A DNA stretch of 64,000 nucleotides from the NCBI RefSeq assembly GCF_029238675.1, contig NZ_JAQWFR010000027.1:1-64000 (forward strand). The letters are read 5' to 3'. This stretch comes from Oceanicoccus sp. GTDB taxonomy: Bacteria; Pseudomonadota; Gammaproteobacteria; Pseudomonadales; Dasaniaceae. Below are positions 10,476-20,528 of this stretch, in pieces; the first letter of the stretch is position 1, and every line of letters starts with the position of its first letter. Under the pieces are notes generated by a model. It worked only from the letters and a program-made list of their open reading frames with translations. It ran no database searches and was not told the DNA's origin. Made by a program: the position numbers and the translations under genes.

Positions 10476-13178
10476 ATGAACACATATCCGAAAAGGCCTG
10501 GATTTAAAAAAAGCAGAATTGCCATGGGCCTGCTCATAGCTGCGGGATCTATGGGCTTAACGCCTACAGCCCTATATGCGGCTGAAGAGACAGTGGTTGA
10601 AGAAGTAGTAATAACCGGCTCCAATATTCGCAGAAAGGGTGATTTTGATAACCCCGCCCCAGTACAAACAGTGGGCCAAATGGAGATCGGTAATGCCGGT
10701 GCCGTACAAATACAGGATGTTTTTAAGAGCATTACTTCTAACTCCGGTTCACAGCTTGCCAACCGGCAAAATGAACGCCAGGGCGTTTCCCAATTTAGTT
10801 TACGTGGACTAGGTGTTGGCTCAACCCTAACCCTGGTTAATGGTCGAAGAGCAGGTCTTTTCGCCGTTCCAGATGATACCGGACAGTTGTTCACTGATGT
10901 CAACCAGTACCCCGTCAACATGATCGAGCGGGTAGAAGTGCTGACAGATGGCGCCTCAGCAACCTATGGCTCAGAAGCTTTGGCCGGTGTTGTCAATATC
11001 ATAACCCGGGATAAATTCGAAGGCCTGGAGTTCACCGCCGAAGCGCGTGATGCTTCAAATTCCTCACAGCAGTTAAGTAGCGCATTTGGTGCCGCCTTTG
11101 ATAAAGGGCACTTCACTATTTTCGCAAACTACTACACACAAGACGGCAATTTCCGCGGTGATTTCGACTGGATTGAAGATAATCAGACGTTCTCATCCAG
11201 CACTGGCTCACCAGGCACTTACTCAACTGCGACCACCGATCCGGTGGATGGCTCAATAACTCACGGTCTGGGAAGCTCATCCACACGGGTTCCCGATGCC
11301 GATTGCCTTGAGGCAGAGGGTACTATATCAAGTAGCCGTTGCCGCTATAACTTTATCGATCAGCGGCGCCTGATTGCTGAAGAAGAGCGCTTTCAAGTAT
11401 TTTCAAAATTCAATTTTGATATATCAGAATCCGCTTCGTTCTATTCTGAAATTAGCCATTCCCGCAATCAGGTGACGGATGCACTGGGTGGTGCCGTACT
11501 ACGTACCGGCCCCTTAGGCGGCAATATGTTTATACCCGGCAGTCATCCCTTCAACTTTTGGGTAGACCAGGGTGGCGACCAACCGGTTTATTTGGATCCA
11601 ACCACCAATGCCGCAGACTGGGCTAACGGCACTTTGGTAGCGACCGATTTGGCGGGTCAATTCAGACCGCTGGGCACCGTGCTGGGTGATGGACCCAACG
11701 CCGATGAAATTAAAACGGTTTTTACCAATAGCCGTATTTCGAGCGGTTTCGATATTGACTTAAAAAATGACTGGTTTTTGGCTCTTAACTACACCTGGGC
11801 CAATTCCGATTACACCCGTCGTGAACCGAGAAACTACGCTGTAGATTTGCTTCAGGAGATTATTAATGATGGCCGCTGGAACCCCTTTGGTACGGCTGTA
11901 GTGTCACCTGACTTGGTTTCCCCCAAAGACGGTGCAACAACTGCGGGTAATGAGTCACTGGTGCTTCAAGAATTCTCTCGCTCTAAAACCAATACAGGTA
12001 GCGTCATGCAACAGGTAGCAGAGGCTATACTGAGCGGCGAAGTCAGTGAAAGTATTGCTGTAGCCGTAGGCGCTCAATATCGTCGCTTAGACTTCGAAGA
12101 CTTCCCTGATGGACTGAGCGGCGTGCTTGAAGGTGGCCGAGCTGATGAAACCAGCCCTAGTGAAGGTTCCCAGGATGCTATCGCACTCTTCACCGAATTG
12201 GCCTGGTCAGTCAGTGATGACCTGGAAACACAGTTCGCATTACGTTATGAGGACTATGATGATAAGGGTGGCTCTACGCTTGACCCGAAAGTTGCTTTTA
12301 AATACAACGTCAACGACGATTTGTCGGTACGGGGTTCATGGGGCACGTCATTTCAGGCGCCATCCATTAAGCAAGTTTCAGGCTCCACGGGTAATGCCAC
12401 AGTCACCGACCCACAGCAACCGGGCGCGGGGACTTTCAATGCCACTGTAGTAACCGGTGGCTCAGCTGACCTGGATCCTCAATCATCAACAAACTATAAC
12501 CTGGGCTTGCTGTACACCGCTGACAATGGCCTGGACCTATCTGTAGATTACTGGGTCTATGAACTGGAAGACCTTATTCTTCCCGGTGCATCTCCCCAGG
12601 TAATCGTGGATAACTGCGGCGCTGGCACTTGCCCGGATGTGCTTCGTGATGCAACTGGCCAGATAAACGCAGTACTCACGTCTTTCGATAACAGAGGCAC
12701 AGCCGATGTTAGAGGTATAGATGTGAAAATTGCCTATGCCCCAGACTGGAATGCAGAGGGTGATTGGATCTTTGACCTGTCACTGACCAAGTTCCTGGAA
12801 TATGATTCATCGGAGTTTGGCGATGTTAAAAACTCACGTAACTTTGGTAATCCATTCGGCTCCACACCAGATACCAAGCTAAATGGTGGAGTTACCTGGA
12901 TGAATGGCAACCACTACGTTAACCTGAGTGCTCGCTTTGTTGGTGACTATACTGATGACCAGACGGACGAGACTGTCGATAGCCAAACCACTTATGACGC
13001 TCGCTATTCTTATGTCTTCCCAGGGCTGATTGCTGGCGGTGACACAACGGTTACTGCAGGTGTGGTTAACATCACCGATGAAGATCCATCCCTGATTGAC
13101 AACCGTCCAGGCTTTGACACCGAGGTTCACGATCCCAGAGGCCGTCAACTCTATGTTAGCGTCAAGCAAACCTTTTAA
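10476..13178 (+). CDS. TonB-dependent outer membrane receptor
   Basis: A 900-residue outer membrane receptor for TonB-energised uptake. The signal peptide covers about residues 1-35 (cleavage after LYAA) and a TonB-box-like stretch TVVEEVVITGSNIRR follows. The plug has VQDV-type spacing and the signatures LRGLGVGSTLTLVNGRR and RVEVLTDGASATYGSEAL then AGVVNII. The barrel ends in the canonical C-terminal Phe (VSVKQTF). This group of receptors resembles those abundant in marine and plant-associated proteobacteria rather than classical siderophore receptors. An AAGGGG Shine-Dalgarno lies about 10 nt before the ATG, 158 nt after tctE. It may deliver the substrate of the TTT operon into the periplasm; that is inference from position only. 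Confidence 0.93.
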   Translation: MNTYPKRPGFKKSRIAMGLLIAAGSMGLTPTALYAAEETVVEEVVITGSNIRRKGDFDNPAPVQTVGQMEIGNAGAVQIQDVFKSITSNSGSQLANRQNERQGVSQFSLRGLGVGSTLTLVNGRRAGLFAVPDDTGQLFTDVNQYPVNMIERVEVLTDGASATYGSEALAGVVNIITRDKFEGLEFTAEARDASNSSQQLSSAFGAAFDKGHFTIFANYYTQDGNFRGDFDWIEDNQTFSSSTGSPGTYSTATTDPVDGSITHGLGSSSTRVPDADCLEAEGTISSSRCRYNFIDQRRLIAEEERFQVFSKFNFDISESASFYSEISHSRNQVTDALGGAVLRTGPLGGNMFIPGSHPFNFWVDQGGDQPVYLDPTTNAADWANGTLVATDLAGQFRPLGTVLGDGPNADEIKTVFTNSRISSGFDIDLKNDWFLALNYTWANSDYTRREPRNYAVDLLQEIINDGRWNPFGTAVVSPDLVSPKDGATTAGNESLVLQEFSRSKTNTGSVMQQVAEAILSGEVSESIAVAVGAQYRRLDFEDFPDGLSGVLEGGRADETSPSEGSQDAIALFTELAWSVSDDLETQFALRYEDYDDKGGSTLDPKVAFKYNVNDDLSVRGSWGTSFQAPSIKQVSGSTGNATVTDPQQPGAGTFNATVVTGGSADLDPQSSTNYNLGLLYTADNGLDLSVDYWVYELEDLILPGASPQVIVDNCGAGTCPDVLRDATGQINAVLTSFDNRGTADVRGIDVKIAYAPDWNAEGDWIFDLSLTKFLEYDSSEFGDVKNSRNFGNPFGSTPDTKLNGGVTWMNGNHYVNLSARFVGDYTDDQTDETVDSQTTYDARYSYVFPGLIAGGDTTVTAGVVNITDEDPSLIDNRPGFDTEVHDPRGRQLYVSVKQTF

Positions 13179-15609: not shown

Positions 15610-15651
15610 ACCAATCCATGCAGGTCAATGGAAAACACAGAGAGAGCAACT

Positions 15652-16509
15652 ATGGCTTCAGGTATTTTAATCACCGCCGTTTTAATCTTTGCCGTGCGAG
15701 GCATGTTGCTTGGTTTTAGCGGCGTTATTGGCCGGCTACTGGGCTTCGCTGCAGGCTATTTCGTAGCTTTTAGCTATCGTTTGCAGCTGGCTGAATTTAT
15801 CACCCAAAACACCAGTATTACCCTGCCCTCTATTGCCCTGCAAATGATGAGTGGTTTGGGGCTATTTATTGTCACTATGCTGGTCACCGGCCTATTAGTT
15901 TCAGCGACGTTTAAACTACTTGGTTCAGTCATCCCGCTTTTTAAGGCCATTGTCGATAATGACTCTGTCGGCGGTAAAGTGGCAGGAGCTACGTTAAATG
16001 GCACTATTGCCGCCGCTATCGTTTTGTTGGGTATTTGGGGCTTTGGGCAGGCAACCAATAAACAAGACCCCAATGACCCGCTACAGCAATTCGCCAATCA
16101 GTTTGGGGAAAAAGTCTTCGGCGTGATTACCGACGGTGAAGATCTTAACTTTCAGGGTTTCTCCCAATCGTTCTCACAAACCATCAGCAACGGTCAGGTC
16201 ATCAGCAGTTCCAGCTCAACGACTACTTATTCCAATACTGGCTCTGCGGTTATCAGCAATGGCTCAAAAACCCTCAGTATTGATTCGGTTAGAGAAGTGC
16301 TTGAACAAGCCAGCCAAAACACCGATGGTATCGATACCGAGGAGTTGCTGAACAACCCTCAGCTGCAAAGCCTGATCAATAACCCCGAACTGCGAGATAT
16401 GGTTCTACAAAAACTGGAGAATAACCCTGGGCAACTCCAGGATATTCAGCAGCAGATTATGAATAACCCGCAACTGCTTGAACTTATGCAACGTCTGCAA
16501 TCGCAATAA
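15652..16509 (+). CDS. CvpA-like membrane protein with C-terminal NNP (STI1-like) repeats
   Basis: Inner-membrane protein of about 285 residues. Residues 1-135 form four hydrophobic segments and include the CvpA-like N-terminus ILITAVLIFAVRGMLLGFSG. A Ser/Thr/Asn-rich linker (about 160-205) follows. The C-terminal 60 residues carry four NNP-started units (NNPQLQSLI, NNPELRDMV, NNPGQLQDI, NNPQLLELM), resembling STI1 modules of co-chaperones, which bind hydrophobic segments. CvpA proteins are known for colicin V export and envelope stress tolerance, usually without this tail. An upstream ATG at 15628 would add eight polar residues; I prefer 15652 because it places the hydrophobic segment at the N-terminus with AGAG-type spacing. 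It follows the hydrolase by 42 nt. Confidence 0.78.
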   Translation: MASGILITAVLIFAVRGMLLGFSGVIGRLLGFAAGYFVAFSYRLQLAEFITQNTSITLPSIALQMMSGLGLFIVTMLVTGLLVSATFKLLGSVIPLFKAIVDNDSVGGKVAGATLNGTIAAAIVLLGIWGFGQATNKQDPNDPLQQFANQFGEKVFGVITDGEDLNFQGFSQSFSQTISNGQVISSSSSTTTYSNTGSAVISNGSKTLSIDSVREVLEQASQNTDGIDTEELLNNPQLQSLINNPELRDMVLQKLENNPGQLQDIQQQIMNNPQLLELMQRLQSQ

Positions 16510-17507: not shown

Positions 17508-20093
17508 TTAGAATTGGTAGGTAGCTCCCGCATACCAGTAAGCACCATTAAAACCAAATGGAGCCGAGCGACGCGAATAGGTAAATACACCAGGACTACT
17601 AACTATAATATTACCACCAGGTGCATCTTCCAAGGTCCCACCTCGACCATTACCAATCTCGTTCTTATCGGGATACTCATCAAAGATGTTATTACCACCT
17701 ACATTAAAGCTCAGCCCATTATCAAAGGCGTAGCGAACATTAAGGTCCGTAACAATAACAGCACCATAAGTCTGTCGACCACCATCTTCAACCGTATATT
17801 CACCGAAGCGATTAAGCGTCAAGTTTGCTTGCCAGTTACCCAGCATATATAAACCTGATAGGTTGATTCTATCTTCTGGCTGCCACTCCTCAATAATTGA
17901 AATATCCTGACTAGTGAAAACCGTTTCTGGGTCTACAGCTGCTAGACCACCACCGGTATATATATCTGTAACATCGGTTTCCGTCTTATTGGCAGCGAAG
18001 GTAATATCCAAAGTACCTTGACCCAATTCAATACCGGAGTAGGTGGTAATTAAATCAAAACCTTCCGTCTCTGTATTGGCACCATTAAGGAAGAATTGAG
18101 CTGAAGTTGCTCCCGCTGCATCTAAGGCGTCACCCAAATTCCCTGAAGGATCATCAGCAGCTTTCAAGCCACCACTGAGGACGATGCGATCATCAATATC
18201 AATTTTATAAAAGTCTAACGTGATACTCAGTTGATCTAGCGGCGTGTAAATAAAACCCAGGCTATAGTTATCAGACTCTTCCTCTTTTAGCGATGGAATA
18301 CCAATATCTTGAGCTAGCTGACTATCATTCCTATAAGTTCCCCTTTGCTCTGCCACCAAATTACCTGTGCCATCATCAACAAACTGGGTACTTATATTAT
18401 TAAAATACAACTGCTGCATGGATGGCGCCCTAAAGCCTGTACTGATGGCGCCCCGTAAACGGAAGGTATCGGTCAACGTCCAATTACCCGCTAATTTAAA
18501 ATTAGTGGTATCACCAAAGTCGTCATAATCATCATAACGAACCGCAGTACTTACCAACACATCCGCAGAGACTTGATATTCTCCATCCACATAGAATGAA
18601 TAAACGTCTCGCTCTTCATCCACTGCCGAAATAGGCGCTATACCATTAAAACCTTGAATAGCTCCGCCAGCATTTTGTGGATATAAATCACTGCCATCTG
18701 CCGGGTCCGTATCAAAGTCGGCATAAGCATAAGGCTGGCCCGGTGTAATTTCATAACTATCCGTTCTAAATTCAAAACCATAAGCCAGCGACAAATCACC
18801 CAAGCCCTGATTAAAATCCAGATTGATCGTTTGCAAACCTAATTCAAGACCGTAAGCCGCGGCGCTACGGGGAATCGTGGCTCGGATATCATCGTCACTC
18901 AGTCCCTCACCAAAATTCAAATAATTTACATAAGAATAATTGATCGAGTTATCGGTATCATACTCAATCTCATTGGTACCGTCGGTATAGGAAATATCCA
19001 TGTCGATACCATTTTCAAATTCCATGGTATAACCAATGTTTAGCGAAAAATCATCGATTTGGGAATGAATAATCGGCAAAAAACCATCAGGGATAACATT
19101 GTCACCATCATCTAGATAGGAACTACTCCCGGAAGATGGATTTCGGTAAAAAGCCCCCGACTCATTTTCACGCTCCGAGTACGTCATAAAACCATAAAGC
19201 TCGCCACCGCCCAAATTGTAGGCCGCATTCACAGTAAAGGCATACTGCTCGGAGTCGGCATCACCAATTCTAAAACTACCTCGATCAAAAATTAGTTCTC
19301 TGGGGTCACCAATTTCATCAATACCATTCATATCGGTATCGGTACAACCACCATAGGCACAAGCGCCCTGCAAACCAGCACGATTGGTTCTACCGCGATC
19401 ACGGTAATTAAAGGTCGCATTAAGGAAGCCACCATCACCGAGCTTAAAACCCTTAGAGGCATCGAAGTTGTAGGTTTCACCATCTCCCTCGCTGTACTCA
19501 CCGTAAGACCCGCTGATACTGCCACCTTCATCAGCATCTTTTAAAATAATATTAATAACACCCGCAATAGCATCAGAACCATATTGTGCCGCTGCACCAT
19601 CGCGTAATACTTCAATACGCTTTATCGACGCTGCGGGTATTGCATTCATATCAACACCGGCAGTACCGCGCCCTACCGATGTATTAATATGAATCAGTGA
19701 TGCTTGGTGACGACGCTTACCATTGATCAACACCAAGGTTTGGTCAGGGCCTAAGCCACGCAGTGTTGCTGGGCGCAAGGCATCCGAACCATCACTGATA
19801 CTCGAACTTGAAAAGTTAAACGAAGGCGCCAGGCTCTGTAACATACGTCCAACCTCGGTATGACCGGTATTAGCCATAGCTTCAGCATTAAGCACGTCAA
19901 CAGGTACTGGTAAATCCTCTGCGGAGCGACCCTGGGTACGAGTACCAATGGTGACCACCTCTTCTATAACTTGATTAGCACCCGCTGTTTGTTGCGCCAA
20001 CGTGTTAGATGCCGCTAGCACCAAAGCGAAAGTAACCGTTACCAACACCCCACTAGGTCTATATCGTATTAATAAATTACTATTGTTTTTCAT
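17508..20093 (-). CDS. TonB-dependent outer membrane receptor
   Basis: Outer membrane TonB-dependent receptor of 861 residues from the ATG at 20093. The frame extends to 20135, but those 14 residues precede a normal signal peptide, and GGGGTGA is well spaced for 20093. The signal ends at NTLAQQ, followed by VIEEVVTIGTRTQGR (TonB-box region and the common GTR start of the plug). Plug signatures are LRGLGPDQTLVLINGKRRH and RIEVLRDGAAAQYGSDAI then AGVINIIL. The barrel is rich in Asp/Gly loops and ends in Phe (AGATYQF). The ligand is unknown; no Fur-box-like sequence was found upstream and there is no linked ABC transporter. It is monocistronic, ending at the shared terminator 20 nt downstream. 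Confidence 0.94.
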   Translation of the reverse strand: MKNNSNLLIRYRPSGVLVTVTFALVLAASNTLAQQTAGANQVIEEVVTIGTRTQGRSAEDLPVPVDVLNAEAMANTGHTEVGRMLQSLAPSFNFSSSSISDGSDALRPATLRGLGPDQTLVLINGKRRHQASLIHINTSVGRGTAGVDMNAIPAASIKRIEVLRDGAAAQYGSDAIAGVINIILKDADEGGSISGSYGEYSEGDGETYNFDASKGFKLGDGGFLNATFNYRDRGRTNRAGLQGACAYGGCTDTDMNGIDEIGDPRELIFDRGSFRIGDADSEQYAFTVNAAYNLGGGELYGFMTYSERENESGAFYRNPSSGSSSYLDDGDNVIPDGFLPIIHSQIDDFSLNIGYTMEFENGIDMDISYTDGTNEIEYDTDNSINYSYVNYLNFGEGLSDDDIRATIPRSAAAYGLELGLQTINLDFNQGLGDLSLAYGFEFRTDSYEITPGQPYAYADFDTDPADGSDLYPQNAGGAIQGFNGIAPISAVDEERDVYSFYVDGEYQVSADVLVSTAVRYDDYDDFGDTTNFKLAGNWTLTDTFRLRGAISTGFRAPSMQQLYFNNISTQFVDDGTGNLVAEQRGTYRNDSQLAQDIGIPSLKEEESDNYSLGFIYTPLDQLSITLDFYKIDIDDRIVLSGGLKAADDPSGNLGDALDAAGATSAQFFLNGANTETEGFDLITTYSGIELGQGTLDITFAANKTETDVTDIYTGGGLAAVDPETVFTSQDISIIEEWQPEDRINLSGLYMLGNWQANLTLNRFGEYTVEDGGRQTYGAVIVTDLNVRYAFDNGLSFNVGGNNIFDEYPDKNEIGNGRGGTLEDAPGGNIIVSSPGVFTYSRRSAPFGFNGAYWYAGATYQF

Positions 20094-20528
20094 AATATCA
20101 CCCCATTTGTTTCCTATTGAAAAGCAATGATGCAAATAACATGAGAACTACATTACTCGTAAAGAGTTAATGTATAGTGATGAAAAATGAAACAATCAAT
20201 AAGAATACCAAGCTGGGAACAGCTGGTATGAAAAACACAGAAAAACAAATCATATACTTACCCTGTAGGCACTAGCAAAGCTTAATACACTTACAAGCAG
20301 CCAACCTGATAACTACAGCATTACAGCTAACTGTTAATCAGCACCAATATTGTTGTGTCTCTTCCCAAGCACTACAAGTTATTACTGCGTTTTTAGTTAT
20401 TAGCGGTTTAACGATACTCCCCTAAAAAAAGTATTACTAGCCTTTTATAGATTGAAATCTCTCATGCTTATAAGCATTGTTAATAACTATCTAACTGGCC
20501 CGTTATATGTCACTAAAATTCGAAACTC
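20094..20528. other. AT-rich non-coding stretch upstream of the TonB receptor
   Basis: About 435 nt of low-GC sequence without a credible reading frame or strong hairpin. It should contain the promoter of the leftward receptor gene. I found no convincing Fur box, riboswitch core or repeat in it. Confidence 0.6.

Follow-up and report, generated by a model that had tools for sequence, protein, structure and literature searches.

A CvpA-like membrane protein with an STI1-like C-terminal tail in Oceanicoccus

The gene described here lies at positions 15652 to 16509 on the forward strand of the window, by which we mean the whole 64,000-nucleotide stretch of Oceanicoccus sp. DNA that was analysed. 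It is an open frame of 285 codons plus a stop, and the same architecture is found in four other members of the genus. The program-made open reading frame opens 24 nt further 5', at 15628, while a start at 15652 is backed by the MA start common to five aligned genus members and is also favoured by a GAGAGAG stretch shortly 5' of the ATG (15640 to 15646, forward strand), a putative ribosome-binding stretch read in the sequence. The gene is separated by 42 nt from an alpha/beta hydrolase gene on its 5' side and by 86 nt from a DUF188 gene on its 3' side; its neighbours are GTP cyclohydrolase I, the hydrolase, DUF188 and Ppnp. At the homologous loci a class II aldolase is found upstream in L002 to L005, carbonic anhydrase in L002, L004 and L005, and DUF188 in L003 and L005 (some labels at all these loci were given by eye), and no shared functional theme was found among the neighbours of the window gene and of L002 to L005. 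An HSP20 gene (6.6e-19) occurs at 222 to 659 on the reverse strand of L003, one gene past DUF188 by the G004 homologue, and was not seen near the other homologues. Two large open frames near the gene in the window, at 10476 to 13178 (forward) and 17508 to 20135 (reverse), look by eye like TonB-dependent receptors.

All features of the protein are given on the forward strand. Residues 1-138 (15652 to 16065) form the CvpA-like module, with four hydrophobic segments seen as hydropathy peaks at residues 4-20, 24-40, 69-85 and 110-126. A linker at residues 139-209 (16066 to 16278), rich in Ser, Asn and Thr in its second half, is followed by a predicted amphipathic helix at residues 210-222 (16279 to 16317), which rests on models of low to modest confidence and on a hydrophobic moment of 0.53 for residues 210-223, and which is not conserved across all five genus species in the alignment. 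The STI1/DP2-like tail comprises residues 229-285 (16336 to 16506). The first-pass annotation had pointed to four NNP units within the last 60 or so residues, and these are indeed present, beginning at residues 234 (234-236, 16351 to 16359), 243 (243-245, 16378 to 16386), 257 (257-259, 16420 to 16428) and 271 (271-273, 16462 to 16470). Shuffling the last 61 residues 200,000 times never gave four or more NNP, and gave at least three in about 1e-5 of cases, which rules out the cluster as a product of chance. The described order of a CvpA-type four-TM part, a Ser/Asn-rich linker and an NNP tail is likewise borne out by hydropathy, by the sequence and by the genus homologues, and the anatomy of the protein as a CvpA-like membrane protein with an STI1-like tail is well supported.

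Matches to the protein at E <= 0.001 occur in 10 of 95 related genomes, and a full-length tailed counterpart is found in five: the window's own genome and four more of the genus, with identities of 75, 38, 45 and 39% to the window protein. The one remaining genus member (G003, 64% complete) gave no match. Identity to G005 is 81% over the TM part, drops to 66% in the linker and amounts to 74% in the tail. The linker is the part that varies most in length between species, and the tail is retained, yet conserved no better than the TM part. Synonymous sites were saturated in linker and tail when dN/dS was estimated by segment.

In Pfam, both halves of the window protein are recognised below the family cut-offs. 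Colicin_V (PF02674) matches residues 5-90 with 20.7 bits (E 4.3e-4, cut-off 29.3) and STI1-HOP_DP (PF17830) matches residues 230-283 with 17.5 bits (E 0.004, cut-off 29.1); since the tail stays below the latter, we describe it as STI1-like without assigning it to the family. The same pair was found in all four genus homologues scanned, with STI1-HOP_DP scores of 17.1, 17.6, 20.9 and 13.3 bits, and Colicin_V reaches 30.5 bits, above its cut-off, in one of them (L004). GatB_Yqey scores about as well as STI1-HOP_DP on the window tail (17.3 bits, E 0.0044), and recurs in one of eight relatives scanned, weakly. Other Pfam matches to the tails of relatives include UBQLN1, RPN13_C, ZNHIT3_C, Com_YlbF, QSregVF, OSCP and ASXH, the last passing marginally in L004 (26.1 bits against a cut-off of 25.8). 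No protease family was matched by the window protein in Pfam, and NCBIfam MarP gave 10.1 of 250 bits, which rules out a MarP-type protease; the TM part of MarP is CvpA-like, and this score of 10 bits is a hint of that.

The resemblance of the tail to STI1 domains, claimed in the first-pass annotation, is carried mainly by profile searches, and a search of this kind had been named beforehand as a test that could refute the claim. A profile built from the five genus tails was searched against 177,635 PDB sequences and gave 11 matches up to E 1. The best natural chain was human HOP (PDB 7KW7), with a whole-chain E of 1.7e-5 and its top stretch, in DP2, at 0.0041 alone; the DP2 domain of yeast Sti1 followed as the next natural match (E 0.0044), and Sti1 DP1 (E 0.35) and TIC40 (E 0.48) matched weakly. 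Designed repeat proteins, to judge by their names, account for four of the 11 matches and include the top hit overall (E 6.4e-7), which ranks above HOP; three further matches, at E 0.5-0.7, are to other proteins. When the tail profile was reversed (one control) or its columns were shuffled (two controls), no STI1 protein came up in the PDB to E 1. With HOP and Sti1 DP2 matched at significant E values and these controls negative, the tail does have an STI1 profile match. The steps between the D/N/S-P positions are spaced 9-14-14 in the window protein and 9-13-10 in the DP2 domains of HOP and Sti1, and vary among relatives.

A more distant family with a similar layout is found in seven of 244 genomes of the order (G025, G067, G035, G065, G212, G124 and G126), where the CvpA-like module is followed by an STI1-like stretch and a DUF4124-like end. 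The STI1-like stretch seems to be duplicated in these proteins, with an hhalign value of 95.2% between the halves. A profile from six of the seven, without the window's genus, matched only Sti1 DP2 (0.0032) and Sgt2 (0.05) in the PDB up to E 0.1, and hhalign of the window-type against the distant tails gave 95.7% (E 9e-9), compared with 0.3% for the reversed control. This control, together with the reversed and column-shuffled profiles above, shows that the STI1 match is not due to composition alone. DUF4124 is above its cut-off in L015, L016, L019 and L051 and sub-threshold in L008 and L009, and the Pfam scan reported no DUF4124 match for L022. One distant relative, L009, is above both of the other cut-offs (Colicin_V 62.4 bits, STI1-HOP_DP 31.9 bits), and the combination of a CvpA-like module with STI1 may therefore already be visible in domain databases. 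Among the open-access papers searched we found none with this architecture, and no description of a CvpA-STI1 fusion, of a periplasmic STI1 domain or of pairings of CvpA, DUF4124 and STI1-HOP.

The Pfam STI1 model at E <= 0.01 matched in 16 of the 244 order genomes. The match lies in a CvpA-like protein in ten of them, including the window's own genome and a genome of the same species, and in three it lies in a short protein whose start resembles a signal peptide; the remaining three matches (one sulfatase-like, two transporter-like) were judged by eye to be chance. G001 carries a tailed protein yet is absent from these 16. At class level the model matched in eight of 369 genomes, with a CvpA-like protein in the window's own only and the other seven judged by eye as chance, and at phylum level (E <= 0.005) in four of 398, where the CvpA-like cases were the window's own genome and G065 and one match was judged by eye as chance. 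Further long CvpA-like proteins, L053, L054 and L055 (G063, G170, G147) and L007 (G019), have helical-looking NP/DP tails that go unrecognised by any STI1 model; no STI1 match was reported by Pfam for the long relatives L006, L007 and L055, whose tails are similar by eye only. Short proteins with a signal-peptide-like start (L021, L023, L026, L031 and L032 from G042, G106 and G133, and L075 from G647) have in common an STI1-like tail and a segment of the IELVDG type, which is conserved. In L023 STI1-HOP_DP reaches 35.4 bits, above the cut-off, and a tail profile of four such proteins again places HOP DP2 (0.0034) and Sti1 DP2 (0.023) first in the PDB.

The gene is not the canonical cvpA of its genome, as is clear from a second, canonical CvpA gene elsewhere (115.3 bits) and from the tree of CvpA-like domains. 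In this unrooted tree of 20 domains, with several long-branched rows and one clipped canonical row, 15 long-tailed and five canonical proteins fall on opposite sides of a branch with support 100/99. Colicin_V matches are present in 142 of 145 order genomes; among the matches listed, six open frames exceed 300 residues and all are members of the distant tailed family, and the canonical CvpA frames among them are mostly about 160-240 residues, without room for this tail. By their sequences, the tailed proteins are a CvpA-like subfamily distinct from canonical CvpA. Enteric bacteria are described as needing canonical CvpA to resist deoxycholate, and a role in export is proposed for it (PMC6705877).

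A scan of contigs gave three loci, one of which encodes a protein identical to that of the window, and the alignments used for structure prediction therefore had three rows. The full-length model was unusable (pLDDT 46.8), and the tail model (residues 206-285; pLDDT 69.7, pTM 0.47) shows, with modest confidence, a first helix followed by five short ones, with breaks at or near the NP steps. A disordered tail had been named as evidence against the first-pass proposal of a membrane-tethered handling site for hydrophobic peptides; the prediction is instead a string of short helices, but with a pLDDT of about 70. Of that proposal, the STI1 resemblance thus holds up in profile searches with controls, and the structural part stands as predicted short helices of modest confidence. 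Foldseek found no match to the tail model in the PDB up to E 10, and a second look with VIA aligned one unrelated chain (Z 2.0); these outcomes do not show the folds to differ.

On which side of the membrane the tail would lie, a point on which the first-pass annotation made no statement, can be approached from the loop charges. In the window protein K/R are absent ahead of TM1; the TM2-TM3 loop has one and the TM3-TM4 loop three, and R16 and R27 sit near the TM1-TM2 turn. In most of 15 proteins it is the TM3-TM4 loop that carries the most K/R, less clearly so in L005, L009 and L051 (only three segments were called in L009 and L015). Under the positive-inside rule, by which K/R-rich loops are on the cytoplasmic side, both termini would therefore be outside. 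A DUF4124-type frame was seen by eye in nine of 11 loci that match the DUF4124-like profile part, and eight of the nine are preceded by a signal-peptide-like or hydrophobic stretch, with only few in-frame residues before the frame in L070; a Pfam scan of two such loci confirmed DUF4124 in both. In MarP, four TM helices are described as being followed by a protease domain in the periplasm (PMC4992679). Because of the charge pattern, the DUF4124 end of the distant relatives and the MarP analogy, the tail is probably outside the cytoplasm, in the periplasm.

It is improbable, on this evidence, that the tail instead faces the cytoplasm and serves as a HOP-like co-chaperone that handles newly made membrane proteins on the inner side of the membrane. 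Such a role would fit the proteins whose solved STI1 domains are matched, since HOP, Sti1, Sgt2 and TIC40 are cytosolic or stromal proteins, but the loop charges, the DUF4124 end of relatives and MarP all speak against it, as do the signal-peptide-like proteins that carry a similar tail. With a periplasmic tail, a HOP-like partnership with cytosolic Hsp70/Hsp90 would be excluded. Bacteria are stated to be without a HOP ortholog (PMC7688965).

The explanation we tentatively prefer, although we put it somewhat short of an even chance, is that the tail is a membrane-tethered, periplasmic STI1-like groove that holds hydrophobic or amphipathic helices of clients or partners. It is favoured by the DP2 matches of the two profiles, by L009 and by the ten CvpA-like proteins among the 16 matching order genomes. 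Several results weigh against it: the window protein stays under both Pfam cut-offs, with GatB_Yqey close to STI1-HOP_DP on the tail; a designed repeat protein outranks HOP; the tail model is of modest confidence and has no Foldseek match; the tail is conserved no better than the TM part; L006, L007 and L055 lack a reported STI1 match; and the gene neighbours lend it no support. The four-TM CvpA-like module would anchor an STI1/DP2-like helical domain via the flexible linker. Both termini would be outside, with the tail on the periplasmic side, next to the inner membrane. The short NP-capped helices would form an open hydrophobic groove, and this could reversibly hold amphipathic or hydrophobic helices, as the DP2 domain of HOP and the STI1 domains of ubiquilins do in the cytosol. 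The groove of HOP DP2 is reported to bind a helix of the glucocorticoid receptor (PDB 7KW7), and an STI1 domain of the ubiquilin family to bind a transmembrane helix, with internal sequences acting as placeholders (PMC13083928, PMC13083955). The predicted 210-222 helix may be such an internal placeholder, and the likely effect would be that exposed hydrophobic segments of envelope proteins are kept soluble, or that a partner is tethered at the membrane surface.

The same helix is the basis of a different explanation, in which the groove mainly binds its own 210-222 helix or that of a neighbour and thereby clusters the CvpA-like module. The models place this helix directly before the tail, and the STI1 domains of ubiquilin and Dsk2 are described as binding their own internal helices and driving self-association (PMC13083928, PMC13083955), but the helix is not retained in all five species, and we consider self-association unlikely as the main role. 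It is also rather unlikely that the tail serves as a spacer, helical or in part disordered, whose NP caps resemble STI1 by convergence and which has no groove. The sub-threshold Pfam score, the modest model confidence and the lack of a Foldseek match would agree with a spacer, as would the designed helical repeats with NPE turns that match the tail profile too. Against this, two independent profiles rank Sti1 or HOP DP2 first among natural chains, reversed and shuffled controls fail to match STI1, the spacing is DP2-like and one relative (L009) is above the STI1 cut-off.

Work on STI1 domains, in proteostasis and ALS, has treated them as holders of hydrophobic helices in the cytosol, and a periplasmic setting would be unfamiliar for such a domain. 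In a bacterial form that is anchored in the membrane and probably periplasmic, the groove would have a minimal natural setting, without TPR, ubiquitin or Hsp70 partners. Such a form would also suggest that the CvpA fold, which is little understood, is able to anchor periplasmic domains, as in MarP. One may speculate further, though we regard it as doubtful, that bacteria have an extracytoplasmic STI1 system in which CvpA-like four-TM anchors and, separately, signal-peptide proteins present periplasmic grooves that hold amphipathic or transmembrane segments of envelope proteins. In that case the STI1 groove would be an ATP-independent holdase on the side of the membrane, older or more widespread than its use in eukaryotic co-chaperones.

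Compared with known systems, the window protein shares with CvpA (Colicin_V, PF02674) the four-TM module and a weak family match, above the cut-off in several relatives, but falls on the other side of the tree and is a separate gene in the genome. With the STI1/DP2 domains of HOP (STIP1), Sti1, Sgt2 and ubiquilin it has in common the profile similarity, the short helices started by NP or DP (five in the window tail, predicted with modest confidence) and a near-identical spacing; it differs in that its tail is below the PF17830 cut-off, is joined to a CvpA-like module, is probably periplasmic and comes without TPR, UBL or UBA domains. Chloroplast TIC40, a weak profile match (E 0.48), is likewise a membrane-anchored protein with an STI1-like domain, but its STI1-like domain is on the stromal side and its anchor is of another type than CvpA. 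MarP, the mycobacterial membrane protease, is described with the same order of four N-terminal TM helices and an extracytoplasmic domain (PMC4992679), the latter being a trypsin-like protease of which the window protein has none. By analogy only, the protein can be set beside PpiD-YfgM, whose domains are described as handling proteins at the inner membrane, on its periplasmic face (PMC9643414), the position proposed here for the tail, whereas PpiD and YfgM each have one TM segment and carry other periplasmic domains.
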